Shown: in pieces, positions 4,692-62,682 of the stretch
Numbering within the stretch: position 1 is the stretch's first letter
How the letters are laid out: the number at the start of each line of letters is the position of its first letter
DNA from: a virus
DNA length: 64,000 nt
Strand: one strand, 5' to 3'
Virus record (IMG/VR): IMGVR_UViG_3300021142_000021
Location: 1 to 64,000 of that record
The notes under the pieces: generated by a model
What the model saw: the letters and a program-made list of their open reading frames with translations, nothing else
Databases searched by the model: none
Told to the model about the DNA's origin: nothing
Program-made: the position numbers and the translations under genes

Positions 4692-4700
4692 GGAAAATAT

Positions 4701-13657: not shown

Positions 13658-13662
13658 ATTAC

Positions 13663-18434: not shown

Positions 18435-18449
18435 TTTTAACAGGTACAT

Positions 18450-21014: not shown

Positions 21015-21020
21015 TAAATA
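21013..21020 (+). promoter_or_regulatory. Late promoter box GATAAATA at HNH gene start
   Basis: GATAAATA overlaps the gp5-like stop and ends four bases before the HNH endonuclease ATG (21025). A transcript starting 6-7 bases downstream would miss that ATG, so the box more likely serves the M15 peptidase gene at 21752. A 7 bp hairpin (21018-21024 with 21029-21035) presents the ATGA of the endonuclease as its loop. Confidence 0.45.
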
Positions 21021-21024
21021 TAGT

Positions 21025-44118: not shown

Positions 44119-44128
44119 AGGTTAGAAA

Positions 44129-44695: not shown

Positions 44696-46089
44696 AAACA
44701 CTAACTATCCCAATTCACGCTTTTAGAGATCAACTAAATGCAATAAGCCCGTCCTTTTGCGCTGCAAAGTGGCAGCAGGTTACTTTGCATCTCCAGACAG
44801 GACATACGCATAGTTGTCACCACCCGCGTACACATAAGATTCCATTAGATGAATTATTAGCAAATCCGTCAGCATTACATAACACAAACTTTAAGAAGTT
44901 GCAAAGAAAGAAGATGCTCGAGGGTGTTCGTCCTAACGAATGCGATTATTGCTGGAGAATAGAAGACGGTCCCGGTGATGGCCTCAGCGACAGAATTTAT
45001 AAATCGTCCGATGACTGGGCGATTCCACACATCGACGCAATTAAAGAGATGCCATGGGATAATGATGTTGTCCCTTCTTACTTAGAGGTATCTTTTAGTA
45101 GTGTGTGTAACTTTAAATGCAGTTATTGCACCCCACAGGTTAGTAGTAAATGGATGGAAGAAATTGAGAAATTTGGACCATATCCTACATCTACGAAGTT
45201 TGGCGATATTGAATGGCTAAGACAGAGTGATGCTATGCCTATTCCTCATAAAGATGAAAATCCTTATGTCGACGCATTCTGGAAATGGTGGCCAGATATC
45301 TATACTAAGTTAGAGCATTTCCGTATCACCGGTGGTGAACCGTTGCTCACAAAGGATACATTTAAGGTATTAGATTATGTCATTGATAATCCTAATCCTA
45401 ATTTACGTCTCTCTATAAACACTAATATGTGTCCACCAGACGGATTATTAGATAAATTTATTGAGAAAATTAAGATTATTTGTGGAGAGAAGAAGGTAAA
45501 ACAACTCAATATTTTTACCAGCGCAGAAGCACATGGTAAGCAGGCAGAGTATATTCGACATGGGTTAGATTACAATAAATGGTTATCGAATATTAGAAAA
45601 GTATTAAGTGAAGTACCTAACTGTACATTCACGATTATGAGTACCTATAATCTGCTCAGTGTTACCACATACAAAGAATTTATGAAGGATATTCTGCAAA
45701 TCAAATTAGATTTTAGCAGATTCGATAGGCCAGATTCACCGATTATTCTTGATGTCCCATATCTACGATATCCAACTCATCAGGCAATTTTTGTTATGCC
45801 TGAGAAATTCTTACCAATTGTATATGATCAGGTAACCTTTATTCATCAACATATTGAGAATTCATTATGGTTTGGTACTGCAAGTAAAGGCTTCTATCAA
45901 TGGGAGGCAGACAAGTTTAAGAGAATTTACGAATTGGTCTGTAAGGTAAAAGACGTAGAAGCAGTTAATCAAAATCAGAAAGACTTTATTAAATTTGTTG
46001 ATGAGCACGATCGTCGACGAGGCACAAATTTCTTAGAAACATTCCCTGAGATGGAAGAAGAATATCGTAAATGGTCTAAGGCTCTATGA
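44692..46089 (+). CDS. Radical SAM protein, twitch-type
   Basis: A 465-residue radical SAM enzyme with the iron-sulfur motif CNFKCSYC giving Cys139, Cys143 and Cys146, preceded by PSYLEVSFSSV and followed by HFRITGGEPLLTKDTFKVLDYV (GGEP motif) near residue 220. The N-terminal region contains HSCHHPRTHKIP and NECDYCWRIEDG, cysteines that could hold an auxiliary cluster. Such twitch-domain proteins occur in aquatic T4-like phages and are of unknown substrate. In this setting, modification of a glycan precursor or a structural protein is possible. Coupled to both neighbours by ATGA-type overlaps. Confidence 0.8.
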   Translation: MKTLTIPIHAFRDQLNAISPSFCAAKWQQVTLHLQTGHTHSCHHPRTHKIPLDELLANPSALHNTNFKKLQRKKMLEGVRPNECDYCWRIEDGPGDGLSDRIYKSSDDWAIPHIDAIKEMPWDNDVVPSYLEVSFSSVCNFKCSYCTPQVSSKWMEEIEKFGPYPTSTKFGDIEWLRQSDAMPIPHKDENPYVDAFWKWWPDIYTKLEHFRITGGEPLLTKDTFKVLDYVIDNPNPNLRLSINTNMCPPDGLLDKFIEKIKIICGEKKVKQLNIFTSAEAHGKQAEYIRHGLDYNKWLSNIRKVLSEVPNCTFTIMSTYNLLSVTTYKEFMKDILQIKLDFSRFDRPDSPIILDVPYLRYPTHQAIFVMPEKFLPIVYDQVTFIHQHIENSLWFGTASKGFYQWEADKFKRIYELVCKVKDVEAVNQNQKDFIKFVDEHDRRRGTNFLETFPEMEEEYRKWSKAL

Positions 46090-46862
46090 ATTTAGAAGAG
46101 AGAATCGCAGTCTGTTTCAGCGGACAATTAAGAACGGGACTAGAAACTGCCCCGTTCTTAAAGAGATTCTTCGGTGACCTATTACCTAAAATGGACTTCT
46201 TTATACATACATGGGATACAGATACCAGCCTAGTTTGGGATCCGAAAACAGGTATGTTTCCCGAACCAGACCTTGTTGAACATCTGCCCATTGAGGCAGA
46301 TAAGTTTATTAAGATAAAGGAAATATATAATCCTATCAAAATGGTAGTGGATAATATAAATGCGTATGAGATATCCTATCATCAAAGAGTAATTAACCGA
46401 TCTGGATTACCACCCGTATTGCACACAGGGATGTTTCAGAGTCTATATGAGTCAAATTCATACAAGACAGAATATGAAATAGAAAATAGTTCCGAATATG
46501 GGCTTGTCATACGTATACGATTTGATATATTCTTTGATCCGGGTCACACATTACAAGAAGAACTTGAGTATCTCAATGTCGAGCCAAATAGGTTATATGT
46601 TTCTGACTTCATGGCGAAATTGCCGAGAAGTGTAGAGGATATCTGCTGGATAGCAAAATCATCTACAATAAATACTGTATGTGATTTTAGTCTAGAAAGA
46701 GAAACACGAAGCGACATGACTGTCATTGATTGGCAAGATCATCTTAGATACTATCTTTACAAACATGATATATTTCCTGTAAAATGGAAGAATAACAACC
46801 TGTATATCTATAGAACAGCTAATGGCGCATTTAGTCCATTTGATACAAAGGATTTAAAGTGA
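46086..46862 (+). CDS. SGQxR/TWD family glycosyltransferase-like, member 1
   Basis: First of nine island genes sharing one fold: N-terminal RIAVCFSGQLRTG, then DFFIHTWDTD near residue 36-45, YGLVIRIRFDIFFDPG in the middle and DICWIAKSSTI before the C-terminal YIYRTANG. The pattern (hydrophobic strand ending in SGQxR, a TWD motif and a central R(P/F)D) suggests a GT-A-like nucleotide-sugar enzyme, but no canonical DxD was identified. Length is 258 residues. Overlaps the upstream stop by ATGA and the next start by GTGA. Confidence 0.55.
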   Translation: MNLEERIAVCFSGQLRTGLETAPFLKRFFGDLLPKMDFFIHTWDTDTSLVWDPKTGMFPEPDLVEHLPIEADKFIKIKEIYNPIKMVVDNINAYEISYHQRVINRSGLPPVLHTGMFQSLYESNSYKTEYEIENSSEYGLVIRIRFDIFFDPGHTLQEELEYLNVEPNRLYVSDFMAKLPRSVEDICWIAKSSTINTVCDFSLERETRSDMTVIDWQDHLRYYLYKHDIFPVKWKNNNLYIYRTANGAFSPFDTKDLK

Positions 46863-47635
46863 GTAATAGAATAGCGATATGTTTTAGCGGACAAATTCGA
46901 ACAGGTGTAATAGCTTCACAGAGTATCTTGCGGTATGTAGGAGATCTATTGTCTGATGTTGATTTCTTTATACATACATGGGATACAGAAACTATCTCTA
47001 AGTGGGGTCTGCAAGGACGAGATAAAAACTTGGCTGATAAGCCATTTCCTGTAAATCCTGAAAAATTTATAAAAATGGAAGAAATATATCATCCAATAAA
47101 AATGCAGATAGATAGTTTCGGAGAATACACGCAGAAAAAACATGATTTACTGAGTTATGCTGGATATAGTGAACACCCATTATTTCATAGTGCATACGAA
47201 TCAAATATGCTCAAGAAGCAATACGAAGATGCAAACAATTTCAAATATAAATTAGTAATAAAAATGAGACCCGATATGGTAATGAATTCTCGTCTAAGAC
47301 TAGAAGATGAAGTTCACTATGTATGCGATCACCGTAAAACAGATGTATTCTATGTTAATGATCAATGGAATAAGTGTCCCGAGTCTATAGAAGATATATG
47401 TTGGATGTCATCTTCAGATACTATGGATATAGCATGTGATTATATACGCGAAAGAGAAATTAATAATTCATATAGAGATATTGATTGGCAAACACACCAT
47501 AGTATATATCTTAAAGAACACAACATACTCTCTAGACCGTTTAAATATAACGAACTATATATCTATAGAGATTATCACGTCGAAGCTGGAATTAGTCCAT
47601 TAGATACAATTTCAATTAAATCATTTACAAATTAA
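46859..47635 (+). CDS. SGQxR/TWD family glycosyltransferase-like, member 2
   Basis: A close paralogue of member 1, the same 258 residues long: RIAICFSGQIRTGVIASQSI, DFFIHTWDTETISKW, YKLVIKMRPDMVMNSRLRLEDE and DICWMSSSDTM. It begins at GTG 46859, within GTGA shared with the preceding stop. Presumably arose by tandem duplication with member 1. Function inferred only from family features and neighbours. Confidence 0.55.
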   Translation: MSNRIAICFSGQIRTGVIASQSILRYVGDLLSDVDFFIHTWDTETISKWGLQGRDKNLADKPFPVNPEKFIKMEEIYHPIKMQIDSFGEYTQKKHDLLSYAGYSEHPLFHSAYESNMLKKQYEDANNFKYKLVIKMRPDMVMNSRLRLEDEVHYVCDHRKTDVFYVNDQWNKCPESIEDICWMSSSDTMDIACDYIREREINNSYRDIDWQTHHSIYLKEHNILSRPFKYNELYIYRDYHVEAGISPLDTISIKSFTN

Positions 47636-47643
47636 TAAATATT

Positions 47644-48489
47644 ATGAAAAGAATAGCAATATGTTTTAGTGGGCAACCACGTACCTGGGAGAAGTGTAGT
47701 GATACATGGGATTTACTCTTCCATAAAATAGAAGAGAAATTTAATGCAGAAGTAGATATCTTTTGTCAAGCATGGGACTTTAATACATCATCACACGTAG
47801 TTGTGATCAACAAACCTGTAAATTTTCTACATTATACAGGTGTTGCTATATCTGAAGAAGAGAAGAAGAGACTAGTGAATGTAATGCAACCGAAAGATTT
47901 TATATTTGAAAATGAAACTGCTAGTTTATCATCTGTTTATCAGACACTAAACAGAAATAGAAATCAAATCATGCAGCACGGTGCAAGTGTAATTCCGTGG
48001 GCATCTAGTCAATTCTATGCTATAATGCGTAGTGCCCACCTTAAGAAAAAATATGAATTTGAACACGGATTTAAGTATGATATGTGTTTACGTATGAGAT
48101 ATGATCTTTTCTTCGATGAAGGTCAATTAGGATGTCTTCTAGGACACGATCTTGAGATGCCAGAATATAATACTCTTTATTCGTGTCATACTTCTCATGA
48201 TGAACACACATTTCCTTATGTAAGATTGGGAGATGTTTTTTGGTATTCCGACAGCGTAACATTTGATAGAATATGTGATTTCTATAGATGGTATCCTGTT
48301 ATTGGAAAGAAGAGTTTCCCTCATTCATCTGTCGGTACCGAACATACTCTTTATTTCTATGCAAAAATGTTGAATATGACTATAAGTCCTATATTAGTAG
48401 ATCCGAAAATATTTAGAGAAGCGAGTTATCTAGATAAAAAAATTGAAGCTGGACTCACAGGAGGATTAGGTAATCATGAACTCATCTAA
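47644..48489 (+). CDS. SGQxR/TWD family glycosyltransferase-like, member 3
   Basis: A 281-residue member: RIAICFSGQPRTWEKCSDTW, then an altered second motif (DIFCQAWDFNT in place of HTWDT), YDMCLRMRYDLFFDEG and GDVFWYSDSVTFDRICDFYRW. It lies eight bases after member 2 and has no obvious strong binding site. Its altered TWD motif suggests a different acceptor or donor. It overlaps the next gene by 14 bases. Confidence 0.55.
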   Translation: MKRIAICFSGQPRTWEKCSDTWDLLFHKIEEKFNAEVDIFCQAWDFNTSSHVVVINKPVNFLHYTGVAISEEEKKRLVNVMQPKDFIFENETASLSSVYQTLNRNRNQIMQHGASVIPWASSQFYAIMRSAHLKKKYEFEHGFKYDMCLRMRYDLFFDEGQLGCLLGHDLEMPEYNTLYSCHTSHDEHTFPYVRLGDVFWYSDSVTFDRICDFYRWYPVIGKKSFPHSSVGTEHTLYFYAKMLNMTISPILVDPKIFREASYLDKKIEAGLTGGLGNHELI

Positions 48490-49336
48490 CTTAGAAGATC
48501 TCTTCCCGAGATCAAACACGTTTCGGATTGCTGTGTGTCTTAGTGGAGAACTTAGACACTGGAGAACAGCGGTGGCGAATATAAAGCAATTTTTCGAGTT
48601 TCCAGAATCTCAAAGATATATAAATGGAAATCAAAATCTGCCTATTACGACAGATTACTTTATACATACGTGGGATACTAATACATGGCGATATTATAAG
48701 ATGGAACATGTACATTTTAAGATTGAACCACATAGTGATAAGAGTGATGTATATGCGGCATATAATCCTAAGGGAATGATTCAAGAACCGTGGGAGCAGC
48801 CTAGGTTTAAAAGAGCATGGGATTCTATGTTCTATAGTCATGCAAGAAGCGTAATGCTAAAAAGAGAGTACGAATTAGAAAATAATTTTCAATATGATAT
48901 GGTTGTTAAAAGCAGGTTCGATACTGTTTATAATCCGAGACATAAAATTCCATTAGATCTAATGACTACCAAAATGTGTTATTCTCCACATGTTAGTTTA
49001 ATGCCATTAGAATTTAATTATAACAACTTCGATGATGTCGTGTTTTATGGTGATAGTCCTACTATGGATTTAGTGGCTGATTTATATCATACGTATAAAA
49101 TACTGCATTCACCAGAGAAATTACAAAAGGGATTAGAAACCAATGATGTAGATCCTTCAATGTACTACGGACCCGGATGTTTATTATATAATCATATGAT
49201 AAGGTTAGGAATACATCCAGAACGACATCATACCTTTGACTACGCAATAGTTAGGTCGACTGCCGCTGAATTAAACTTAGATGGAATTAAAGATTATGAC
49301 GAAATTAGAAAAAAATGGTTTGATTGGTACATCTAG
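48476..49336 (+). CDS. SGQxR/TWD family glycosyltransferase-like, member 4
   Basis: A 286-residue member with FRIAVCLSGELRHWRTAVANI (SGELR for SGQxR), DYFIHTWDTNTWRYY, YDMVVKSRFDTVYNPRHKIPLD and DVVFYGDSPTMDLVADLYH. The start ATG lies within the end of member 3, with GAGGATTAGG upstream. The C-terminus (DYDEIRKKWFDWYI) is similar to those of members with a short Trp-rich tail. Its 3' end overlaps the next gene. Confidence 0.55.
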   Translation: MNSSNLEDLFPRSNTFRIAVCLSGELRHWRTAVANIKQFFEFPESQRYINGNQNLPITTDYFIHTWDTNTWRYYKMEHVHFKIEPHSDKSDVYAAYNPKGMIQEPWEQPRFKRAWDSMFYSHARSVMLKREYELENNFQYDMVVKSRFDTVYNPRHKIPLDLMTTKMCYSPHVSLMPLEFNYNNFDDVVFYGDSPTMDLVADLYHTYKILHSPEKLQKGLETNDVDPSMYYGPGCLLYNHMIRLGIHPERHHTFDYAIVRSTAAELNLDGIKDYDEIRKKWFDWYI

Positions 49337-50219
49337 GTTGCAGATCATCTGCGATGGAGATAGTTGGGTATTCGGTTGTGAGATTGCAGACCCGGAATTA
49401 GCTAAGAAATATTCAGCTGATACACACCCGGGTGCCTATGATTTTCTACCAGAGAATGATTGGTATCGCATACCAAAAATATTTCCTACGCATCTATCTA
49501 ATCTATTAGATGCAGAAGTAATTAATCTATCCTGGCCAGCAGATGATAATGCAACCATTTTAAATCGGACAGTTGATTTTATAACTAATACTTATATAGC
49601 AAGAGGTATATCCACTGATAATCTATTAGTAGTTATAGGATGGAGTAGTCCAGAGCGAAATTCATTCTGGTATAAAGACGATAATCTATCTCGACCGTTT
49701 AGACTATGGCCACAGGTTCCTAATTTTGATGTTCCTGCACAAGAAGAAATTTGGAAAACATATGTAACCTATCTCTGGAATGCTGAAGAGTATATACCGA
49801 GATATGTGCGTAATGTTATATATCTTCAGAATTTTTGTAAGGCACATAACATAAAATGGATGTGTTTCAACAGTTTTTATCAAACACCAAAGAAAACAAT
49901 ATCCGATTGGAAAGATTTAGATATCGCTGCAGAACTTGATTCTATAAAAGAAACAATGAAGCACCCGTATCATTTCAACTCTACAAGAGACGGTTTGACA
50001 AAATATAATGCCGTACTAGATTATAAGGCATTGTGGGATACAGTGGATCCTATTAGATTTTATAAGAAAGATATACCTAATAACACATTCAAGTCATTTA
50101 TAGAAAATCCTGATAGAAATATAAATCCTGTATTTACAGGATGGCATCCTAGTCCGGAAGCACACAAGGCATGGGCACAGGAATTAGCAACTTATATAAG
50201 AGACAATAATATAATATGA
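49296..50219 (+). CDS. SGNH-hydrolase-like protein, member 1
   Basis: About 307 residues with the SGNH/GDSL block pattern: IICDGDSWVFGCE (block I, GDS), INLSWPADDNATILNRTVDFI (Gly/Asn region), LLVVIGWSSPERNSFW (block III-like) and GWHPSPEAHKAWAQEL near the C-terminus with the His. Such enzymes are esterases or O-acyl transfer/deacetylation enzymes of glycans. The start is uncertain: ATG at 49281 or 49296, or TTG at 49338 just after the preceding stop; 49296 is used. It is joined to the next paralogue by an ATGA overlap. Confidence 0.55.
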   Translation: MTKLEKNGLIGTSRLQIICDGDSWVFGCEIADPELAKKYSADTHPGAYDFLPENDWYRIPKIFPTHLSNLLDAEVINLSWPADDNATILNRTVDFITNTYIARGISTDNLLVVIGWSSPERNSFWYKDDNLSRPFRLWPQVPNFDVPAQEEIWKTYVTYLWNAEEYIPRYVRNVIYLQNFCKAHNIKWMCFNSFYQTPKKTISDWKDLDIAAELDSIKETMKHPYHFNSTRDGLTKYNAVLDYKALWDTVDPIRFYKKDIPNNTFKSFIENPDRNINPVFTGWHPSPEAHKAWAQELATYIRDNNII

Positions 50220-51073
50220 TCGATACCTTGTATACAAACGGGTGCAGCTGGACATCAGGTAATGAATTAGAGTGCGACATGGCATATCAGGATTACTTAA
50301 TAGAACATGAACTAAGACATAGTCCAGTGGATAAGTGGGTTCTAATAGATAAAAATAATAAACCTGCAGGTCATGTCAATGATTACTGGTGTAAATTTAA
50401 TTGGCCAGGAAAATTATCAGAGAAACTTGCTATACCTACCTTAATAGATCAATCAGTTGGTGGCGGCAGTAATTCTAGAATATTAAGACAGACATGTGAA
50501 TTTATTAAAAACTATCCTATTCCTGCTAGAGAAAATCTTCTTCTTGTTATCGGTTGGACAATATCTGATAGGCAGGAATTATATTTAGATAATGGACAAG
50601 GATATGCAGACTGGGTCCAGTTTAATTCTAGCACTCAGTTTAGCAAATCAATACACAGAGAATTTTCGAAAGATAAAGACTTTGCAAATAGTATAGATCA
50701 GTTTCAGAAAAATTACATAACAAGTATTGATACTGAATACGCACAATTATACCAATATTTTCAACAAATATATCTGCTATCGAGTCTGCTATCGAGTCTT
50801 AATATAAAGTACCTGTTCTTCAATGCATTAACTGCCTGGTGGGAAGCAGGTAGCGGAAAGTACATATTAAATGTAGACGAAGTTTTCAAGAAGGAATTAG
50901 CATGGCAAAATAGTCATCCTAATATGATGCATCATAATAGAGGTTCGATGCACTCATTTGTTCACCGGAACGCCTTTCCACGCGGCCCGGATAAACATCC
51001 ACTAGCATTAGCACATGATTTATGGGCAGAATATATTCTAACTCAATTAAAACAAAGAGGTATAGTTCAGTGA
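50216..51073 (+). CDS. SGNH-hydrolase-like protein, member 2
   Basis: A 285-residue paralogue: LYTNGCSWTSGNELECD (block I, with GCS in place of GDS), IDQSVGGGSNSRILRQTCEFI, LLLVIGWTISDRQELY and KHPLALAHDLWAEYIL with the C-terminal His. Bases 50774-50797 are a perfect 2x12 bp tandem copy encoding the SSLLSSL stretch, a recent slippage event. The stop is shared with the GTG start of the next gene (GTGA). Confidence 0.55.
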   Translation: MIDTLYTNGCSWTSGNELECDMAYQDYLIEHELRHSPVDKWVLIDKNNKPAGHVNDYWCKFNWPGKLSEKLAIPTLIDQSVGGGSNSRILRQTCEFIKNYPIPARENLLLVIGWTISDRQELYLDNGQGYADWVQFNSSTQFSKSIHREFSKDKDFANSIDQFQKNYITSIDTEYAQLYQYFQQIYLLSSLLSSLNIKYLFFNALTAWWEAGSGKYILNVDEVFKKELAWQNSHPNMMHHNRGSMHSFVHRNAFPRGPDKHPLALAHDLWAEYILTQLKQRGIVQ

Positions 51074-51813
51074 AAATAGCTATATGCTTCAACGGCCATC
51101 TTAGGACAGCTCTTGCGGCAGCACCTAATTTAATAAGATACTTCGGTGAACTATCACCTTGTATAGATGTGTTTATACATACATGGGATCTAAGTGTGGA
51201 TGCGGTGTACGAAACCAACCTAGACATAGAGGATCACAATCGGCCACCTATAGAAGTAACCAGCCGAGAATTACAGGAACTCTCTAAGGTGTATAATGTC
51301 AAGGGATTTGAAATAGATAATAATGAGTTAATTATAGAGAGATTTAACTCACCAGCAACGCCCCGGTTCTATTCATTTTATAACAGTGTAAGATTAATGA
51401 CAGACTATGAAATAGCAACTGGAACAAAGTACGATGTATGTATTAAACTTAGACCCGATATTATTTTTCCTAAGAAGAGACATTTAGCAGAAGAAGTCAT
51501 CCGTTTTGTACTGGATAAAAAGTCTTTCTACTCTGATAATTGTACTTTGAAGTATTGTAAACCTATTATGATAGATGATATATTCTGGCTATCATCTCCT
51601 GATATAATGAGAAGACTAAGTCTATATTTTTTCGATAATATGTTGTTGAATATGCATTTTTTCGATTATATAAAACTATCTAATATACAGGTTAAAGACA
51701 TGGTAGGAGGGCCTTATACCATCTATAGAACAGAAGCACTAATGTTGGATCCCTTAACTGAGTTTGACGCATGTCACGAAATTGATCGAAAACTTTTTAG
51801 GATACTACACTGA
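51070..51813 (+). CDS. SGQxR/TWD family glycosyltransferase-like, member 5
   Basis: A member of 247 residues from GTG 51070, chosen because GTGA joins it to the preceding stop and the family domain starts there (KIAICFNGHLRTALAAAP); an in-frame ATG at 51022 would add 16 non-homologous residues. Motifs: DVFIHTWDLS, YDVCIKLRPDIIFPKKRHL and DDIFWLSSPDIM. It is most similar to the gene at 52616 (shared RLMTDYEIATG, SFYSDNC, YTIYR), although another member lies between them. Confidence 0.6.
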   Translation: MKIAICFNGHLRTALAAAPNLIRYFGELSPCIDVFIHTWDLSVDAVYETNLDIEDHNRPPIEVTSRELQELSKVYNVKGFEIDNNELIIERFNSPATPRFYSFYNSVRLMTDYEIATGTKYDVCIKLRPDIIFPKKRHLAEEVIRFVLDKKSFYSDNCTLKYCKPIMIDDIFWLSSPDIMRRLSLYFFDNMLLNMHFFDYIKLSNIQVKDMVGGPYTIYRTEALMLDPLTEFDACHEIDRKLFRILH

Positions 51814-52619
51814 TGAAGATTGCTGTATGCCTTAGTGCCCAGATAAGAACCGGTATCGACGCTGCACCTAATATATTAAATTACTTAGGTGATTTATTAC
51901 CTGATATAGATTTCTTTATACATACATGGGATAAAGAAACTATTTCTTACTGTGAATTAAATGAAAATCTGATGTTACCTAATATCTTTGATGTTACCGA
52001 ACCATCTGTAGGAAATATGATATCGGCTCATCTTACGATGCCTGTAGGTAAAATAGATAAATTTCTAGACATATATAAACCTAAAAAGTTTAAAATAGAT
52101 AATCAAGAAACATATATTCAATCTCTGACAAGGCCTGGACCACCCGCCTTGTATTACAGTATGCATGAAGTAAATGCGTTAAAACAAGAATACGAACGAG
52201 AGAATAATTTTACCTATGATGTTGTAATCGCTACGCGGCCAGATTTAATCTTCAGTTCAGATAAACACCTCGGTGATGATCTAAAATCTATGGATTTAAA
52301 CTCTAATCATATATACGGATTACGATGGGATAAAACACCAATTAATCTATTTGAGAATATATGTTTCACAGGTAGATCAGATATTATAGATATTTCTACT
52401 AATTTTATTAATTGGGACCCTTCTTTTTTCGATACCACAGATACTCAAGAATTACATTATCGATATCTAATAGAGAATAATATTCTTCCATGCGACATAG
52501 CTTCTAAAGAGTTTATCGTGTACAGGTATTATCAGAAGTATTTGCATAGTCAGGGTAAGTCATATGATTCGATAATTAAAGAATGGGTAGGTCCCTGTGG
52601 TAAAGGACTATATCAATGA
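51813..52619 (+). CDS. SGQxR/TWD family glycosyltransferase-like, member 6
   Basis: A 268-residue member: KIAVCLSAQIRTGIDAAPNIL, DFFIHTWDKETISYC, YDVVIATRPDLIFSSDKHLGDD and NICFTGRSDIIDI. It is closer to members 1 and 2 in the central HTWDxETIS motif than to its two flanking neighbours. The start overlaps the preceding stop in TGATG, and its end overlaps the next ATG by four bases. Confidence 0.55.
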   Translation: MKIAVCLSAQIRTGIDAAPNILNYLGDLLPDIDFFIHTWDKETISYCELNENLMLPNIFDVTEPSVGNMISAHLTMPVGKIDKFLDIYKPKKFKIDNQETYIQSLTRPGPPALYYSMHEVNALKQEYERENNFTYDVVIATRPDLIFSSDKHLGDDLKSMDLNSNHIYGLRWDKTPINLFENICFTGRSDIIDISTNFINWDPSFFDTTDTQELHYRYLIENNILPCDIASKEFIVYRYYQKYLHSQGKSYDSIIKEWVGPCGKGLYQ

Positions 52620-54719: not shown

Positions 54720-55501
54720 TAGTTTGTGGTGATAGTTTTAATGTCGGAATAGGGTGTCGCGATTTAAAGAACGAACCGTATGGTGCATTATTAGGTAAAG
54801 AACTAAATAAACCCGTAATTAATTTGGCAAAAGGTTCTAGTACCAATTTTAGTATATATCTGCAGGCAAAATATGCTGTAGATAAATTAAAAAATAAAAC
54901 AGATTTAGTCCTAGTATCAAATACAAGCTATGATAGAGTAAATTGGTTTCCAGTCGACTTTGAACATAAGAATGCAGAAATAACAAATACTGTCGTAAAT
55001 TATCATCAGTATCCTCCGTATGGCCCGGCCAGTTATATCACCCTACTAGACAATCCGATGAAGGATGATCCAGAATATACAGGTGAAATGTTTACTGAAA
55101 ATTATATGGGTGTAATCGATTATTGGGAGAATTTTGCGTCTAAGAATAGAGAATCAGGGTATTACAGAAGATTCAAAGATGAACCTAAAGAAAGAACAAA
55201 GATATTATACGATTTTGCTGCAAGCATACATGATCCAAGAATAGATCGTATACAATGTATAGGTGTTCTAACAATGGCACATCAGTTACTGAAAAGGGCT
55301 GGGATAAGACACCTAATGCTAATAGATGATGTTAAAGAATATAGCAAATTTATGGATCCAACTAATCTAGTATATGTCTCGTGGGGAGAATTAAGTAATA
55401 ATTATCCGGACGATCTACCAAGTCTGCATACTTCTGCTGTCGGGCAACGTGTTGTATTTGATTCTGTTTTAACTAAACTAAAGGAAAATTCGTGGATATA
55501 A
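54704..55501 (+). CDS. SGNH-hydrolase-like protein, member 4
   Basis: A 265-residue paralogue with a canonical block I: AIVVCGDSFNVGIGCRD (GDS), then VINLAKGSSTNFSIYLQAKYAV, DLVLVSNTSYDRVNW and LPSLHTSAVGQRVVFDSVL with the catalytic-type Asp/His region. It starts inside the previous gene, before AAAAAGCAATAG, and its end overlaps the next gene's GTG by 10 bases. Confidence 0.6.
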   Translation: MEKAIVVCGDSFNVGIGCRDLKNEPYGALLGKELNKPVINLAKGSSTNFSIYLQAKYAVDKLKNKTDLVLVSNTSYDRVNWFPVDFEHKNAEITNTVVNYHQYPPYGPASYITLLDNPMKDDPEYTGEMFTENYMGVIDYWENFASKNRESGYYRRFKDEPKERTKILYDFAASIHDPRIDRIQCIGVLTMAHQLLKRAGIRHLMLIDDVKEYSKFMDPTNLVYVSWGELSNNYPDDLPSLHTSAVGQRVVFDSVLTKLKENSWI

Positions 55502-56631
55502 AAAAAATTCCTAGAATAATTAATATAGATTCTAACCAGCAACCTGAAATTGAACATCTATATACCTTTAAAGATTTTCCGGTTTTTATGGGAACTACTG
55601 AAAAGAGCATCGACGACGATTTAAGAGCAGATATGAATATCTATATCAATAAGATTGATGGTATGCTACAGGTTAATCCGGTACTACCATTAGATATTGT
55701 TTACCAGCATGAACATAACTCTGGTACCACAGGAAAGGTATGGAAAGATCATCATTCAGAGTTAGCATTATTCCTGAGTAAACAAAAGCCACAGGCTATA
55801 TTTGAAATAGGAGGTGCCCACGGTATTCTATCAAAAGAATATACATATGATAAGATTCCCTGGACAATCTTAGAACCTAATCCTTCGCCAACTGAAAATT
55901 GCACGGCTACGTTTATCAAAGGATATTTTGACAGGGACTTTAAGTTTAATAAGTATTTCGATACTGTTGTTCATTCTCATGTATTTGAGCATATGTATAA
56001 TCCCGATGAATTTATATCCTTGCTATCAACACTGATAGATGATGGTAAGAAGTTAGTATTCTCTATCCCAAACATGAAAGGAATGTTAGAAAGAAAGTAT
56101 CTAAACTTCATGAACTTTGAACATACATTCTATCTCGGTGATGAACATGCAGAATTCTTATTAGCGAAATATAAATTTAGAATAGTAGATAAAACCTACT
56201 ACACAGAAGATCATAGCATATTCTATTCTGTAATTAAAGATACAACAGTTACACCTATACAGATGCCCGTCGGCATCTATGAAACGAATAAAATATTATT
56301 TTCAGAATATATAGATCATTATACAGCTCTTGTTGATAAACTTAATCAGCAAATTTCTATATCAAATAGTCCTGTCTACCAATTTGGCGCTCATGTATTT
56401 TCCCAATATTTAATAAATTTTGGATTAGATATTACGAAGATAGTATCCTTGTTAGATAACGATGTATCAAAACAAGGTAAAAGACTATACGGAACTACAC
56501 TCTATGCAGAATCTCCTAAGGTGCTTAGGGGTATAAAGAATCCTATTGTATTACTTCAAGCTGGACCATTCTCAAATGAGATTAAGAAAGATATCTTAGA
56601 AAATATCAATTCAACAACCATATTTCTGTAA
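55492..56631 (+). CDS. SAM methyltransferase, sugar C-methyltransferase-like
   Basis: A 379-residue protein starting at GTG 55492 with AAGGA seven bases upstream. Residues about 95-225 form a class I SAM domain (AIFEIGGAHGILSKEY, WTILEPNPSP, FDTVVHSHVFEHMYNPDEFI, KLVFSIPNMKGML). The C-terminal 110 residues (VYQFGAHVFSQYLINFGL, IVSLLDNDVSKQGKRLYG, NPIVLLQAGPF) resemble the Methyltransf_14 domain of NDP-sugar C-methyltransferases. The Cys-rich zinc domain usual at the N-terminus is missing. It likely methylates an activated sugar. The gene is followed by a 53-base gap with a late box. Confidence 0.7.
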   Translation: MDIKKIPRIINIDSNQQPEIEHLYTFKDFPVFMGTTEKSIDDDLRADMNIYINKIDGMLQVNPVLPLDIVYQHEHNSGTTGKVWKDHHSELALFLSKQKPQAIFEIGGAHGILSKEYTYDKIPWTILEPNPSPTENCTATFIKGYFDRDFKFNKYFDTVVHSHVFEHMYNPDEFISLLSTLIDDGKKLVFSIPNMKGMLERKYLNFMNFEHTFYLGDEHAEFLLAKYKFRIVDKTYYTEDHSIFYSVIKDTTVTPIQMPVGIYETNKILFSEYIDHYTALVDKLNQQISISNSPVYQFGAHVFSQYLINFGLDITKIVSLLDNDVSKQGKRLYGTTLYAESPKVLRGIKNPIVLLQAGPFSNEIKKDILENINSTTIFL

Positions 56632-56661
56632 CACATTTACGAAATACAGATTAAATATACA

Positions 56662-56669
56662 TATAAATA
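56662..56669 (+). promoter_or_regulatory. Late promoter box TATAAATA
   Basis: TATAAATA, identical to the T4 consensus, lies 15 bases before the cupin ATG and is followed by GGAG. It is the only other late box noticed in the island after 39762, in its only sizeable gap. The leader would be only about 10 bases. Confidence 0.5.
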
Positions 56670-56684
56670 GTACGGAGATACATC

Positions 56685-57143
56685 ATGACAATTATACAAC
56701 TCATTCAACCGAAATTCGTAAAAAAACCGTGGGGTCACGAATTATGGATTGCAGATGGTGTAAGAACACCATACGCAAATAAAAAGATATTATTCAATGC
56801 AGGTAACCAAACAAGCCTTCAAGTTCATAAGCACAAATATGAAACAAGCTATGTTATAAGCGGTACAGGCATACTTCTTCTATCAGATAAGTTCTTTAAT
56901 GTAGATTTATATGTTAATGGAAATATGTCAGCAGAAGAAATAAAAGATCACATTGATAGTTTGAGATCGGTACCTTTATCCCCAGATGTAATTTTCGATA
57001 TATCGCCTGGCCACTTACATAGAGTGGTAGCAACCACAGATCTAACCTTCATGGAAACAAGTACAGCAGAATTAGATGATGTCATGCGACTATTAGATGA
57101 TACAAATAGGCAGAATGGTAGAATCGATGCAGAACACAAATAA
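56685..57143 (+). CDS. Cupin, mannose-6-phosphate isomerase type II-like
   Basis: A 152-residue cupin with the hallmarks of the PMI/GMP C-terminal domain: KKPWGHELWIADG near residues 13-26, LQVHKHKYETSYVISGTGILLL near 45-66 (two His metal ligands) and FDISPGHLHRVVATTDLTFMETST near 105-130. Such domains bind a metal and isomerise phosphosugars or act as sugar epimerase-like modules. A GGAG site and late box precede it. It would supply or modify a precursor for the neighbouring transferases. Confidence 0.7.
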   Translation: MTIIQLIQPKFVKKPWGHELWIADGVRTPYANKKILFNAGNQTSLQVHKHKYETSYVISGTGILLLSDKFFNVDLYVNGNMSAEEIKDHIDSLRSVPLSPDVIFDISPGHLHRVVATTDLTFMETSTAELDDVMRLLDDTNRQNGRIDAEHK

Positions 57144-57753
57144 TTCTACCATCTTCAATAGATTAGTAGTATTCGGGTGTAGTCATACTGTTGGCCAATT
57201 TCTTCCTGGATGGGAACCCGAACCCGGTGAGCAAGGTATACTTAGTAATCTTGCCTGGTCAAATCATCTTGCAGAATATCTAAATATTCCTGAAATAATT
57301 AATAAGGCATCCGGTGGTAACTCCAATCATGAGATCTTATTAAATATAATGAATTTTAAATTCTTACCAGGTGACCTATGTGTAATATGCTGGTCATATG
57401 CTAACAGAGAAATTCTATTCGACTATCATGAAGCCACCGGGTGTATAAGAACATCGGTTCTATTACATATCGATAAAGATGATACTTTTTTTAAAGTGCA
57501 TTCTATGCACGATCTAGAATTTAGAAGTAGAGAATATATCAATCATGCCACTCTATTATTAAAGAGTGTTGGAATAGAATATCGAATGGGGAAGATAGAA
57601 AACTGGGTGTCTAATAAAAATATAAACTGGTCAGACTATTCATATGACGATTTTCTATCTTTCGTAGTATCGGATTTCGGATCAGACGGATATCACCCCG
57701 GCGTGATATCTCATAAAGAATTTGCAAAGAAAATATATGAATCATTTAAATAA
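57127..57753 (+). CDS. SGNH-hydrolase-like protein, member 5
   Basis: About 208 residues: RLVVFGCSHTVGQFLPG (block I, GCS), IINKASGGNSNHEILLNIM, DLCVICWSYANREILFD and SDGYHPGVISHKEFAKKIYESF with the C-terminal Asp-x-His pattern. The ATG at 57127 is preferred over 57097 or 57115 because the conserved domain begins soon after; all overlap the cupin gene. Its 3' end overlaps the nucleotidyltransferase-kinase gene by 17 bases. Confidence 0.6.
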   Translation: MQNTNNSTIFNRLVVFGCSHTVGQFLPGWEPEPGEQGILSNLAWSNHLAEYLNIPEIINKASGGNSNHEILLNIMNFKFLPGDLCVICWSYANREILFDYHEATGCIRTSVLLHIDKDDTFFKVHSMHDLEFRSREYINHATLLLKSVGIEYRMGKIENWVSNKNINWSDYSYDDFLSFVVSDFGSDGYHPGVISHKEFAKKIYESFK

Positions 57754-59269
57754 TCTAACAGTCCTTATACTTGCAGCTGGTTACGGCCGACGTATGGGAC
57801 CGTTCTCGCGCATGGTAAACAAGAGTCTTATACCGTACGATAACAAGCCACTAATTAGTCACATTATGGGCAAATTTAGCTCTAATACAAGATTTGTTAT
57901 TGCGTGTGGCAACATGGGGCAACAGGTTAAAGATTACGTCTCAAATGTGCATTCTGAGAAAAATATCGTTTACGTGGATATTCCAGAATTCGACGAAGGT
58001 AATACAGGTCCTGCCACCACAATTAGGTACTGTTCAGATCATCTACCAGGTAGTTTTTTATGGATTACATGCGACACATTATTTGAATTTAATTTCGAAG
58101 ATAAGCTAGATCATAATTGGATTGCTGTGCATCCTGTTGATAGTAGTGTATCACAGGATTATTGTTGGGCTCAAAGAAACGGAAACGATATAGTTGATAT
58201 CAAGAACAAAGTAAAATCGGCTAGTGCGGTTGATGCATTCATTGGTCTCATGTATGTCAAGGATAAGGAATATATTCAGTACCTGATTGATGCTAATGCA
58301 AAAGAAACGTATGAAGGATTCAAACCTGCGCTTAATTTAAAAGCATATACAGTTGAAGAATGGCAAGATTTCGGTACATATGAAAAATGGCAAACGTTGA
58401 GTGAAGGTCTGCCCGAGATAAGTTTTCCGAAGCCCGATGAATTATTTTATTGTGATAATGGTAAGATTATTAAGTATACAACAAATGAAAAATTATCAAC
58501 TCTTAGATATAATCGTGCCTTATTAAATCCTGGTTGTATGCCCACCAATGTTGAGAAACATAATAACTTCCTTATCTATGACTATACAGAAGGCAAAACA
58601 ATGTACACCTGTTTGACGCCTGAAATATTTTCTAAATTCATGGGATGGGCTGAAGAGAATCTCTGGATTCATGCAGAGACATTTGGAGATACTGTTGCTT
58701 ATGCTGATGATTTTTATCGTAAGAAAACACTCGATCGTTTAGGAAAATTTAGAATAAAGTATAGCACATGGGTAGAATTTCCGGTAGTTAATGGTCGTGA
58801 CGTAAAATCAATAGATGAGTATCTTGCCGACATTGACTTTGCTTGGCTTGCATCAGAGACAAACTGGTGCTTTACACACGGTGATATGCAGTTTGATAAC
58901 ATCATATACAATGACGGAAAATTTACAGCAATAGATTGGAGAACAGATTTCGCAGGAGATCAGTACGGTGATATGTATTATGATCTATCTAAGATGCTCG
59001 GCGGATTGTATTTGAGCTATAAAGCAGTAAAAGAGGATAAGTTTACATACAGAGAACTCAGTGATCAAGTTATCATCGATTACCCCATGGTAGACAATAT
59101 AAACTTGTATGTTACTCAGCTTCACGAGTGGGTATTGGCAAGAGGACATGACTGGGACAAAGTAAAAACACTTGTGCCTATTATATATCTTAATATGTCT
59201 CCTTTACATGAAGCGCCATTTGATAAATTTTTAATCGCATTGGCACAACTCTTCTTTTCACAACTATAA
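57737..59269 (+). CDS. Nucleotidyltransferase-APH/choline-kinase fusion
   Basis: A 510-residue bifunctional protein. Residues 1-230 are a nucleotidyltransferase (LAAGYGRRMG from residue 12, then KSLIPYDNKPL and FLWITCDTLFEF). Residues about 250-510 are an aminoglycoside/choline-kinase-like kinase with the Brenner-type motif HGDMQFDNIIYN near residue 380 and the metal motif AIDWRTDFAGDQYGDMYYDL near 397. It would phosphorylate a small substrate and convert it to an NDP-linked form, comparable in logic to LicA plus LicC or AmgK plus MurU. The substrate is unknown. Start ATG 57737 is used; a TTG at 57722 is in frame. Confidence 0.75.
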   Translation: MNHLNNLTVLILAAGYGRRMGPFSRMVNKSLIPYDNKPLISHIMGKFSSNTRFVIACGNMGQQVKDYVSNVHSEKNIVYVDIPEFDEGNTGPATTIRYCSDHLPGSFLWITCDTLFEFNFEDKLDHNWIAVHPVDSSVSQDYCWAQRNGNDIVDIKNKVKSASAVDAFIGLMYVKDKEYIQYLIDANAKETYEGFKPALNLKAYTVEEWQDFGTYEKWQTLSEGLPEISFPKPDELFYCDNGKIIKYTTNEKLSTLRYNRALLNPGCMPTNVEKHNNFLIYDYTEGKTMYTCLTPEIFSKFMGWAEENLWIHAETFGDTVAYADDFYRKKTLDRLGKFRIKYSTWVEFPVVNGRDVKSIDEYLADIDFAWLASETNWCFTHGDMQFDNIIYNDGKFTAIDWRTDFAGDQYGDMYYDLSKMLGGLYLSYKAVKEDKFTYRELSDQVIIDYPMVDNINLYVTQLHEWVLARGHDWDKVKTLVPIIYLNMSPLHEAPFDKFLIALAQLFFSQL

Positions 59270-60093
59270 TGTTTTCAGATATAGACAATTATTACTCTCA
59301 TCTCATTACGCTCAGATCAATGCATAATGTTGAATGGGCAGACTACGATGTTATAGAGAACTATAAAGAATCAACTCTAGCAGGCCCCAATCCCTACGGG
59401 TTACATGATATTAGTTACAAATATAATATAGACGGATTTCGATGTGATGACTTCAACCTATCATCTGAATTACCTATTTTATTTATGGGCTGTAGTTTCA
59501 CAGAAGGTACGGGATTACCTATAAATCATATTTGGGCTAATTTATTATTAGAAAGAATTAAAGTACATACAGGTAAGAATATACCGTATTGGAATACTGC
59601 ATTATCGGGCGCATCTATAGATGCAATGGCCAATGGCCTATATTGGTTTGATAGAAAATTTGCTGTCGACTTAAAATATATAGTAATGCTATGCCCTCCC
59701 TTTCAAAGGAGAGAATATCTATACGGTGATGGCAAGATTAAAACATGGTATAATCCGATAGGAATTGCCACCGATAATGATGCAGTTAACAGTTTATTCA
59801 TGGATAGAAATTTCTCATACTATAGAACAGGTGTTGATTTAATGCTGATAGATTCTATAAGAAGAAGAACGAATGCCTCAGTAATATATTCGTCCTGGAA
59901 GATGCCGGGTACCGAAACCGAAAACGAAACTGCATTTATAAAAAGAAATTGCCCCGATTTTAATTATGTAAACTTTCCTGCTATAGAAAAGTTTAATACA
60001 ACTACAGCAAGAGATGGTGAGCATTTCGGCGTGGATATGCATAACAAGATATGTGATTATTATTGGGACGAATATTTCGTAAAGAATCTATGA
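59269..60093 (+). CDS. SGNH-hydrolase-like protein, member 6
   Basis: A 274-residue paralogue with an extra N-terminal 70 residues (NPYGLHDISYKYNIDGFRCDD). Block I is ILFMGCSFTEGTGLP, followed by YWNTALSGASIDAMANGLYWF, IVMLCPPFQRREYLY and ARDGEHFGVDMHNKICDYYW with the C-terminal Asp-x-x-His. The ATG overlaps the preceding stop by one base (TAATG) and its stop overlaps the next ATG by four. Confidence 0.6.
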   Translation: MFSDIDNYYSHLITLRSMHNVEWADYDVIENYKESTLAGPNPYGLHDISYKYNIDGFRCDDFNLSSELPILFMGCSFTEGTGLPINHIWANLLLERIKVHTGKNIPYWNTALSGASIDAMANGLYWFDRKFAVDLKYIVMLCPPFQRREYLYGDGKIKTWYNPIGIATDNDAVNSLFMDRNFSYYRTGVDLMLIDSIRRRTNASVIYSSWKMPGTETENETAFIKRNCPDFNYVNFPAIEKFNTTTARDGEHFGVDMHNKICDYYWDEYFVKNL

Positions 60094-60785
60094 AAGAGTT
60101 TTATAGTCTAAGTAGATATCCGGGTAAGACAGGAGAACATTTCTTTAACTCTATGTTTAAGAAATTTGATATGCCATATACCTATACTGCTTTAGCCTGT
60201 GATAATATTGCAGATGGAGTTAAACAAATGAAAGAATGTGATGCTGCAGGTTTCAGTATTAGCATGCCATTCAAGACAGATGTTATAAAACAAATAGACT
60301 TTGTAGAAAATACAGTTTCTCGATTTGATAGCTGCAATACAGTATATAAAGAACGCGATGGTCTACACGGATACAATACAGATTACTTTGGTGCATATCA
60401 TGTACTTCAACAGCTACCGGAAAACTCTAAAGTAAGTATTCTAGGCGATGGCGCAATGGGATCTATGTTTAAGAAAATACTAGATGATAGAGCACTTGTA
60501 TATTCAAGAAGATTAGGAAACTGGGAATATAGATATAGGGCAGATGATGTTGTCATCAACTGTACCTCATATGGTACAGCGGCACAAGATTCCCCTTTTA
60601 ATATATTACCGCCAGTGAAATTAATAATCGATCTTGCAATTAAGCCAAACCAGTTAGAACAACAGGCCGCGGCGGCAAATGTTAAATACGTAGGCGGTAT
60701 GGAGTTCTACAAGCGTCAGTTTATCAGACAATTCGGAATCTATACAAAAAAATTAATTACAATAGAAGATGTGAATAGTATATGA
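60090..60785 (+). CDS. Shikimate-dehydrogenase-like protein (AroE family)
   Basis: A 231-residue protein with the AroE substrate-binding domain and its key residues: SLSRYPGKTGEHFFN at the N-terminus, GFSISMPFKTDV with Lys62, SCNTV with Asn83 and GYNTDYFGA with Asp98, the positions of the catalytic Lys and Asp in the family. The NADP part has KVSILGDGAMGSMFKKIL (GxGxxG-like). It is shorter than usual AroE (about 270). Start ATG 60090 overlaps the preceding stop by ATGA; an ATG at 60063 is in frame. In a glycan operon it probably oxidises a cyclic or sugar-derived substrate, not shikimate itself. Confidence 0.75.
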   Translation: MKEFYSLSRYPGKTGEHFFNSMFKKFDMPYTYTALACDNIADGVKQMKECDAAGFSISMPFKTDVIKQIDFVENTVSRFDSCNTVYKERDGLHGYNTDYFGAYHVLQQLPENSKVSILGDGAMGSMFKKILDDRALVYSRRLGNWEYRYRADDVVINCTSYGTAAQDSPFNILPPVKLIIDLAIKPNQLEQQAAAANVKYVGGMEFYKRQFIRQFGIYTKKLITIEDVNSI

Positions 60786-61252
60786 TTAAACACTTGGTAA
60801 TGGATGTTGATGGTGTCCTTAATACAGGGCACTTTTTCTATAGTGCAGAAGGAAAGATATTTAAAGCATTTGGACCGCACGATAAAGACGGTATAAAGAT
60901 TGCTCAGAAATTAGGACTGACTATTGATTTCATTACAGCCGATGCTAATGGATGGGAAATAACCTGTGCTAGATTAATTAAGGATTGGGGATTCACAAAT
61001 TCAAATGTTCACCTTGTTACCGAAGGTGATAGATTAGGATGGATTGAAAAACAATATAATCTAGAAGAAGTTGCATATATCGGTGACGGGATTCATGATG
61101 CACCTATATTGGCTAGAGTAGCTGTAGGTATAGCACCAAAGAGTGCAAGAAGAGAAGCGATTGCTTCAGCCGATTATGTGACAGAAAGTGATGCAGGATC
61201 TGGTGCAGTATTAGATGCTGTGCTTATATTACAATCTATTATTAACAGATGA
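60782..61252 (+). CDS. KdsC-like HAD phosphatase
   Basis: A 156-residue, cap-less HAD phosphatase of the 3-deoxy-octulosonate-8-phosphate phosphatase type. Motif I MDVDGVLNTG has the nucleophile Asp8 and Asp10; KAFGPHDKDGIKIAQKLG near residues 29-46 and GDGIHDAPILARVAVGIAPKSAR near 100-125 are highly characteristic of KdsC-like enzymes. It should remove phosphate from a sugar acid or related metabolite. Overlaps with both neighbours are four bases (ATGA). Confidence 0.8.
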   Translation: MIKHLVMDVDGVLNTGHFFYSAEGKIFKAFGPHDKDGIKIAQKLGLTIDFITADANGWEITCARLIKDWGFTNSNVHLVTEGDRLGWIEKQYNLEEVAYIGDGIHDAPILARVAVGIAPKSARREAIASADYVTESDAGSGAVLDAVLILQSIINR

Positions 61253-62682
61253 AGAAAGTTGCTGTAGTAATTTGTGGTCAGTATCGAGAATTCGATATCG
61301 CATTTAGGTCATGGAAGTTTCTAAATCTTCCATTAGACGTTGATATCTATTTGTCGACATGGGATACGTCATACGAGGAGTTGTATGATACGTTTAATAC
61401 ACCAGCGGGTCCTATTGAGACAATTACTATCGATCGCATATTAAAGACAGTACCTAACATCAAAGATTATAAACTTAGCACAGAACCAGTCCCACGGATC
61501 AATACCATACATAAATTTGAATACCATATAAAAACTGGTTTACAGTTAATGATAGATTCTAATATAGAATATGACTATGTTATGATAATTCGTACTGATA
61601 TGTGGTTAACAAATGGAATAAGATTTGATCAAATCTTATTGGCTGATTTTTTACCAGATGATGTTGTATATGGGCCAAGCGAGTTAAATTTCAACGAACC
61701 ATTTTACGGACCTTGGGTAATAGATTGTTTTTTAATAGGCAATTATAAGACGATGAAAAAGTTTACAAAATTATCATTAAGGCCGGATGATGATTTTGGT
61801 TCAGAGCGTATGTTCGGAGACTTTTATGTGGCTGAAAATCTCCGAGCTGTACCTATACCGGGTATGTATGAATTGTTGGGTGTAAGATCTAATAGTAGAG
61901 ATTTACCGAGATTCACAGAGGCCGCTATTAGAAAGAAAACAAAGGAATGGTGGAACTTAAAACATCCAGAAAATGCAGTAGAACTTAATTCAGTAAAGAA
62001 AGTTGCCGTACTAATATGTGGGCAATATAGAGAATTCGAAACTGCTGTCAAGTCGTGGAAATTTATGCCACCCGGTATGGAATACGACATGTATATGTCC
62101 ACATGGAATACAACGTATGAAGAATTATACGACGGAGAATGGACACCTGCAACTGATATAGAAGAAGTAACTACAGAAAGAATAAGAAAAATAATCGGGT
62201 TAAAAGATTGCAAAACCTTCACAGAAATAAGCGGACCAACATTAAATAGGTTTGTATTTCTTATAAAGGCAGGAATCAATATGATGATTGATTCTGGTAT
62301 AGATTACGAATATGTTATAATAATTAGACCAGATTTATGGGTAGTTGATTCAATGATAAGTGGTATAACAGAAATATTTAAAGAGCCTATTCCAAATAAT
62401 GTTTCTTATGGGACAGGATTATTAATGAATGATGTTAATAATCTTCCCTGGGCTATGGATTGTATATGGATAGCCAATCAGCTAACCATAGAGAAATTCT
62501 TAGAATTTCCAGACAATAATCCAAATTATGGTATGGAATCGTTACTAGGTTCTTTCTATACCACTAATAAAATTGAAGTAAGATTAATACCCAATGAGTG
62601 GGAAATGGCTATAGTAAGATCGAATTGCAAAGATCTACCAGAATTTACAGAAGAAGCTATTAGAAAAAAATCTATAGAATAG
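61249..62682 (+). CDS. Two-domain SGQxR/TWD family protein, member 9
   Basis: A 477-residue protein consisting of two direct copies of the family domain: KKVAVVICGQYREFDIAFRSWKF (residue 2 on) with DIYLSTWDTSYEELYD, and KKVAVLICGQYREFETAVKSWKF (near residue 250) with DMYMSTWNTTYEELYD. Each copy ends with RKK(T/S). Copy 1 continues WWNLKHPENAVEL; copy 2 is cut by TAG at 62680, but the frame goes on as YHLKHPESIIL to a TGA at 62716. The stop therefore looks like a recent nonsense change. Both domains are otherwise intact. Confidence 0.65.
   Translation: MKKVAVVICGQYREFDIAFRSWKFLNLPLDVDIYLSTWDTSYEELYDTFNTPAGPIETITIDRILKTVPNIKDYKLSTEPVPRINTIHKFEYHIKTGLQLMIDSNIEYDYVMIIRTDMWLTNGIRFDQILLADFLPDDVVYGPSELNFNEPFYGPWVIDCFLIGNYKTMKKFTKLSLRPDDDFGSERMFGDFYVAENLRAVPIPGMYELLGVRSNSRDLPRFTEAAIRKKTKEWWNLKHPENAVELNSVKKVAVLICGQYREFETAVKSWKFMPPGMEYDMYMSTWNTTYEELYDGEWTPATDIEEVTTERIRKIIGLKDCKTFTEISGPTLNRFVFLIKAGINMMIDSGIDYEYVIIIRPDLWVVDSMISGITEIFKEPIPNNVSYGTGLLMNDVNNLPWAMDCIWIANQLTIEKFLEFPDNNPNYGMESLLGSFYTTNKIEVRLIPNEWEMAIVRSNCKDLPEFTEEAIRKKSIE

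Follow-up and report, generated by a model that had tools for sequence, protein, structure and literature searches.

An expanded family of predicted GT-A-fold glycosyltransferases, interleaved with SGNH acyl-esterase-like genes, in an operon of an environmental phage

Islands rich in glycosyltransferases are already known from large marine phages, and so are glycosylated virions, the latter, to our knowledge, from few phages only. The host recognition clusters of pelagimyophages and cyanomyophages are large, variable islands that lie in the structural region near the tail fibres and carry several glycosyltransferases and radical SAM cassettes; in the part of that description used here, the pelagimyophage transferases belong mostly to family GT8 (PMC7029224). 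In mycobacteriophages Che8 and Rita, the virion is glycosylated by phage-encoded glycosyltransferases, with few such enzymes and no comparable module described in the portion of the report on which we draw (work cited in PMC11256854). Here we describe an operon in the environmental virus record IMGVR_UViG_3300021142_000021, of which the first 64,000 bases (the window) were analysed; the whole record has 82,375 bases and probably represents only part of a jumbo-phage genome. Nine genes of the operon encode ten domains of one family which, on the strength of a confident structure model, are predicted to share the GT-A glycosyltransferase fold and presumed to be catalytic paralogues. As in the host recognition clusters of T4-like marine phages, they lie in a variable island of the structural region, beside tail genes. 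The family, the series of SGNH enzymes that accompanies it and the fixed gene order do not figure in the account of the pelagimyophage clusters, so far as it is used here (PMC7029224). What is new is a glycosyltransferase family uncharacterised in the libraries searched, its RxD motif in place of DxD, and a fixed module of these transferases with SGNH genes that is undescribed in the literature searched.

An earlier interpretation, hereafter the sequence-only reading, had grouped nine genes with ten domains at 46086–62682 into a single family. That grouping is correct: between them, phmmer, iterated profiles and HHalign link the ten domains, which lie in open frames on the plus strand and are numbered g1 to g9 by gene in Table 1. 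Seven genes (g1–g7, with g5 taken to start at about 51070) matched one another in all-against-all phmmer comparisons at E values of 1e-6 to 1e-75; the tandem gene g9 was found by the seven-gene profile at E = 1.3e-11, prior to its inclusion, and g8 at E = 5e-16 by a later-round profile from which it was absent. Profile–profile comparison with HHalign gave E = 6e-8 for the tandem pair and E = 3.6e-6 for the g8 group. The same interval also holds genes outside the family, namely all six SGNH genes and several for sugar metabolism. Relatives were gathered with a five-sequence alignment, since one of all ten domains leaves too few conserved columns, and a 139-member alignment was assembled from the window domains and members from viral and bacterial loci. 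Ten domains, in nine matching frames, is the highest count encountered; 49 other member-bearing records, many of them fragments, gave between one and seven. Among the related loci, labelled L015 to L091, three (L035, L036 and L046) encode members in which a single frame of about 590 codons is matched over two transferase domains, so that two-domain fusion also occurred outside the window phage.

The motifs by which the family had been defined, a strand ending in SGQxR or a close variant, TWD and a central RPD, are recognisable, although their wording was too strict. SG[QE]xR or CGQxR occurs in six of the ten domains, the remaining four having NGHLR, SAQIR, SGHFR and SGVMR; TWD is found in seven, with AWD in g3, TWN in the second domain of g9 and no equivalent in g8; and the central motif is really RxD, which all ten possess, only five in the form RPD. 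With residues numbered on g2, A6, R14, D35, Y130, R137, D139 and R237 are invariant in the ten domains, and D179 is present in eight. The fixed core of the family therefore consists of an Arg after strand 1, an Asp in strand 2, the RxD motif and a C-terminal Arg. Across the 139 sequences, R14, D35, R137, D139 and R237 are each conserved in at least 91%, the Arg and the Asp of RxD each being retained in 137.

An AlphaFold2 model of g2, computed from the 139-sequence alignment, reached a predicted local distance difference test (pLDDT) score of 94 and a predicted template modelling (pTM) score of 0.92. Every one of the 50 PDB structure matches listed for it is either a glycosyltransferase that has a GT-A-type domain or a multidomain enzyme that includes one; those listed include XXYLT1 (xyloside xylosyltransferase), B3GNT2, B3GALT5, SpsA, glycogenin and BoGT6a and, among the multidomain enzymes, chondroitin polymerase, LH3 and COLGALT1. 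The best match had E = 1.4e-5, and 123 matches lay at E ≤ 0.001. The check for GT-A similarity that the sequence-only reading had proposed thus returned a nucleotide-sugar-transferase fold. Besides the predicted fold, the family has in common with GT-A glycosyltransferases (XXYLT1, B3GNT2, SpsA, glycogenin, BoGT6a) conserved residues in an N-terminal strand and the loop that follows and, as judged from secondary structure, an acidic motif past the central strand; it is unlike them in its conserved C-terminal Arg and in having RxD for DxD. By DSSP assignment, rather than by superposed coordinates, RxD comes after the strand formed by residues 132–136 and before a short strand, the position expected of DxD in GT-A enzymes. 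The closest viral models listed belong to Synechococcus phage S-SKS1 and to the giant viruses Catovirus, Fadolivirus and Tupanvirus, all of them uncharacterised proteins, and the listed viral matches also include proteins annotated as glycosyltransferases, for instance a Cafeteria roenbergensis virus "glycosyltransferase". In the matches listed, proteins of Catovirus, Fadolivirus, Tupanvirus, Cafeteria roenbergensis virus (E3T516) and chloroviruses reach template modelling (TM) scores of 0.5–0.7 with E values down to 4.5e-14; they differ in belonging to viruses of eukaryotes and are mostly uncharacterised.

Two features count against the assignment to active glycosyltransferases. TM scores to solved structures are only 0.34–0.50, at 6–11% identity, and the match is therefore to the fold and not to a specific enzyme; and the first Asp of DxD is replaced by Arg in nearly all members, which might make the use of metal and donor atypical or leave some members inactive. 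This replacement, along with divergence of the window copies to 14–20% identity in the most distant cases, would suit inactive GT-A-fold proteins that serve as glycan-binding or structural components. We consider such a role improbable in view of the five residues kept in all ten domains and nearly throughout the relatives, and of the sugar-nucleotide synthesis genes alongside. Our preferred interpretation is that the ten domains, whose predicted active-site residues are conserved, are putative active transferases.

The sequence-only reading had found no named family for these proteins, and scans of Pfam, NCBIfam and PHROGs bear it out, giving only matches of unknown function or below cut-off: none of the models in Pfam or NCBIfam gives the family a name, and a PDB sequence search with the full family profile gave chance matches only, that is, no solved relative by sequence. 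The PHROGs entry phrog_13607, of unknown function, matches eight of the nine genes with E values down to 7e-13 (seven at E ≤ 8.6e-8 and g4 at E = 5.3e-5, g8 being unmatched), chiefly over the N-terminal two thirds of the proteins. DUF7796 (PF25072) scores at best 19.1 bits with a window gene, under the Pfam gathering cut-off of 27, and is matched by 48 of the 139 relatives at E ≤ 0.01 (best E, 1.9e-8); it appears to be a distant homologue, the family not belonging to it by Pfam's rule. We found no literature naming DUF7796. An existing CAZy number for the family is possible, Pfam, NCBIfam, PHROGs and PDB sequences being the only collections by which it is set apart here.

In a tree of the 139 sequences, g1 and g2 belong to a supported group of ten sequences, among them members from L015, L016, L017 and L020, g3 and g4 each group with orthologues (up to 58–59% identity), g6 clusters with members from L015 and L039, and g8 belongs to a supported subgroup of its own. 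The only duplications private to the window phage in this sample are those of g5 and g7 (48–49% identity) and of the two halves of g9 (45–46%). Most of the ten domains appear to be paralogues of old origin that have orthologues in other phages, rather than cassettes that arose recently. Antigenic-type diversification had been put forward for them, by which the copies would form a recombining or switchable repertoire and not the steps of one pathway; the high copy number, the two lineage-specific duplications and stretches of 26–134 nucleotides with 60–94% DNA identity between copies are compatible with that idea. However, synonymous codon identity is close to chance in nearly all 45 pairs, the exception being one pair with z = 3.3, which makes recent gene conversion unlikely; a search for phase-variable tracts, long homopolymers and long tandem arrays yielded none of note; and most copies are deeply diverged, with their own orthologues elsewhere. 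Active cassette switching is, in our judgement, very unlikely, and that part of the sequence-only reading is not supported. Diversification of another form, by gain and loss of transferase and SGNH genes between phage lineages, is supported by mapping the related loci.

The family is embedded in one operon-like run of 28 genes (40145–63680), in which 23 of the 27 junctions overlap and only two show gaps of more than 10 nucleotides; some of the start codons used were our choice, and the overlaps also hold with the starts as listed. A promoter scan performed at chance level and a terminator scan weakly above it, and neither was used. The island extends past the window (record positions of about 63807–67852) with genes for a carbamoyltransferase, a sugar nucleotidyltransferase, a radical SAM/SPASM protein and an aminotransferase. 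No stretch of 19 residues with a mean hydropathy above 1.6 was found in the 28 operon proteins or in four beyond them, and therefore no flippase, polymerase, phospho-glycosyltransferase or oligosaccharyltransferase is encoded there; the operon thus departs from Wzx/Wzy- and ABC-type polysaccharide loci, with their membrane initiator, flippase and polymerase or transporter.

Table 1. Genes of the operon-like run on the window (positions in the 64,000-base window)
Gene	Position	Strand	Features
Upstream conserved module genes	40145..43531	+	DxD GT-like (40145, 41029), unassigned (41877), DAD GT-like (42527); glycosyltransferase (GT) assignment from motif only
Two small methyltransferase-like paralogues	43528..44695	+	sequence reading only
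Radical SAM protein	44692..46089	+	usual start of GT block in related phages
g1	46086..46862	+	SGQLR, HTWD, RFD
g2	46859..47635	+	SGQIR, HTWD, RPD; modelled, GT-A fold
g3	47644..48489	+	SGQPR, AWD, RYD; orthologues up to 59% identity in other phages
g4	48476..49336	+	SGELR, HTWD, RFD; orthologues up to 58% identity in other phages
SGNH gene 1	49281..50219 (start approximate)	+	GDSW, HPxxxAH; DUF6071
SGNH gene 2	50216..51073	+	
g5	51070..51813	+	NGHLR, HTWD, RPD; likely GTG start, overlaps preceding stop; sister of g7
g6	51813..52619	+	SAQIR, HTWD, RPD
g7	52616..53350	+	SGHFR, HTWD, RLD
SGNH gene 3	53347..53982	+	
g8, divergent member	53967..54719	+	SGVMR, no TWD, RPD; subgroup recurs in L016, L018, L020, L021
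SGNH gene 4	54704..55501	+	modelled, pLDDT 97; nearest solved folds SGNH esterases/acyltransferases
Methyltransferase (Methyltransf_23)	55492..56631	+	
Cupin, mannose-6-phosphate isomerase C-terminus-like	56685..57143	+	under curated cut-off
SGNH gene 5	57097..57753	+	
Sugar nucleotidyltransferase fused to APH-type kinase	57722..59269	+	
SGNH gene 6	59269..60093	+	
Shikimate-dehydrogenase-like oxidoreductase (AroE-like)	60063..60785	+	
KdsC-type HAD phosphatase	60782..61252	+	
g9, two fused domains	61249..62682	+	61249-61995 and 61996-62679; CGQYR in both; RTD / RPD
GatZ/KbaZ-like aldolase-family protein	62715..63680	+	

DNA-modification pathways are known in which phage glycosyltransferases work together with radical SAM and transferase proteins, and the transferases of the window might on that precedent glycosylate modified phage bases as a protection against restriction. 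We regard DNA hypermodification as very improbable: no thymidylate-synthase-type enzyme was found in the 82-kb record (probably a genome fragment), the island lies in the tail region, and sugar biosynthesis, ten diverged transferase domains and six SGNH enzymes exceed what base modification would need.

The six SGNH genes (49281–60093) are interleaved with the transferases and are all mutually homologous, which makes them a second expanded family. The modelled member, gene 4, is predicted to have the SGNH fold; in the family the block I Ser (S11) is invariant and the block V His (H242) conserved in at least 90%, and the top PDB matches of the model are TesA, acetylxylan and CE2 esterases and the acyltransferase SsfX3 (E of 1e-3 or above). 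Homologues number 195 open reading frames (ORFs) in 1.13 Mb of transferase-bearing loci (L015–L091, partly redundant and chosen for the transferase family) and zero in 183 kb of the related phages PA5oct, SCTP-2 and XacN1. Across the related loci the SGNH family tracks the transferase block, mostly without Pfam annotation. Copy numbers of the two families correlate moderately over 48 loci with limited flanks (Spearman 0.41, p = 0.0035), which is no more than suggestive of co-expansion.

The order of genes recurs in related loci, running from glycosyltransferase-like genes through radical SAM, transferase block, SGNH block, cupin and nucleotidyltransferase-kinase to the AroE-like and GatZ-like genes, and within this conserved order gene numbers vary in the transferase and SGNH blocks. 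Merging of similar loci left 48 viral loci; in 33 of these at least three of the remaining module families are present, and in 39 there are SGNH genes. Among 50,697 annotated phage records, six match g6, three match g3 and two match the nucleotidyltransferase-kinase; with many environmental loci and few such matches, the module belongs mainly to uncultured phages. Synechococcus phages S-SM2, S-SKS1 and B23 also carry the transferase family, with sugar-synthesis genes next to it, and the family's cellular distribution amounted to four bacterial contigs in one pattern-limited scan. No paper combining SGNH, glycosyltransferase, radical SAM and phage genome was found in the literature searched. 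The nucleotidyltransferase-APH kinase fusion was seen in about half of the related loci. The AroE-like and GatZ-like proteins are frequent neighbours in the module with no obvious role in glycan assembly, and may make an unusual sugar or cyclitol.

A late sigma factor, a recombination endonuclease and baseplate genes point to a T4-related myovirus. One endonuclease subunit is 56% identical to those of PA5oct-type jumbo phages and a baseplate wedge protein 41%, and the window phage groups with jumbo phages of the PA5oct/Rak2 type. The island follows a giant virion-protein gene of about 10 kb, itself placed after the wedge gene; in PA5oct this is where tail-fibre genes are found. Measured from the wedge gene, the transferase block lies 19 kb downstream in the window phage; of ten records that have a strong homologue of the wedge protein, nine carry the block 16.5–35 kb downstream of it on the same strand. 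In the related cultured jumbo phage XacN1, ORF325–334 form a smaller island at the same position, with GT9, PF11397 transferase and carbamoyltransferase genes; at least two glycoproteins were detected by proteomic analysis, and the authors suggested phage-encoded transferases as their makers (PMC5852040). Elsewhere in the window, a separate GT-B-looking glycosyltransferase adjoins a methyltransferase at 6825–8514 on the minus strand, outside the island, and ORFs resembling GIY-YIG or HNH homing endonucleases occur at 12905–13669 and 20965–21750 and, in the stretch of the record just past the window (L010, whose positions 808–4853 correspond to about 63807–67852 of the record), at 16646–17281 and 17998–18675, all of them read from the sequence alone. 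A frame of 1183 codons on the minus strand (1–3550), open at the window edge, has 14 hydrophobic segments and long antisense frames opposite; it may encode a virion protein of the tape-measure kind.

Assembly of a complex glycan step by step, the role suggested at the outset, fits with ten diverged domains that keep a common core and lie in one operon with sugar-activation, acyl, methyl and carbamoyl genes. The mechanism we favour, with confidence and doubt about evenly balanced, is that a decorated glycan is assembled in the cytoplasm on proteins of the virion. Within the infected cell's cytoplasm the chain would be extended by one sugar per domain, approximately one enzyme per linkage, from nucleotide-sugar donors made partly by neighbouring enzymes of the operon, and the SGNH, methyltransferase and carbamoyltransferase enzymes would decorate the chain. 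The acceptor would be a soluble phage protein, most likely a component of tail, baseplate or fibre, so that the finished glycan would be carried on the virion. A virion acceptor is favoured because of the position of the island, the absence of lipid-carrier or export machinery and of membrane proteins, and the precedent of XacN1. As lineages differ in the number of transferase and SGNH genes within a conserved frame, the structure of the glycan probably differs from phage to phage.

The main rival is remodelling of the host envelope, in which the GT-A enzymes would extend or modify lipid-linked O-antigen or capsule intermediates by way of the initiating transferase, flippase and polymerase of the host, and so change the cell surface and keep competing phages from adsorbing. 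O-antigen loci typically carry genes for sugar-nucleotide synthesis and for acyl and carbamoyl decoration, and the family's occurrence beside sugar-synthesis genes in the three Synechococcus phages is in keeping with such a role. Remodelling of this kind is also the published reading of 24 lipopolysaccharide genes in P-SSM2 (PMC2984593). Several points speak for caution over the virion: the membrane steps absent from the operon could be carried out by enzymes of the host; work on similar pelagiphage islands, in the part of it considered here, reads their glycosyltransferase-rich host recognition clusters in terms of host O-chain modification (PMC7029224); no biochemically studied phage with the module was found in the literature searched; and XacN1 has neither this transferase family nor the SGNH family in the stretches examined, which makes it a positional analogy and not an orthologous system. 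Against the host envelope, however, stand an operon with no membrane protein and related loci with almost no ORFs having multiple transmembrane segments, an island position tied to baseplate and tail genes, and the glycoproteins in the proteome of XacN1, a cultured relative with a similar island (PMC5852040). We hold envelope remodelling to be possible but doubtful, and retain the decorated virion glycan as our working interpretation.

In its fullest form, which we offer only tentatively, that interpretation envisages a self-contained system in which ten or more soluble GT-A enzymes of the RxD type and a series of SGNH enzymes, for acyl transfer or ester cleavage, would build on the tail proteins of uncultured jumbo phages a long glycan that bears acyl, methyl and carbamoyl groups, with structures made lineage-specific by gain and loss of transferase and SGNH genes. 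A recurrent operon in which an unassigned transferase family reaches as many as ten copies would point to the making of elaborate glycans by many of the large phages in the environment, and these glycans would affect adsorption, recognition and tail chemistry. The family would add to the GT-A fold a subfamily whose motif is RxD and not DxD, and would offer a clear test of whether it is the host surface or the virion that islands of this type modify.

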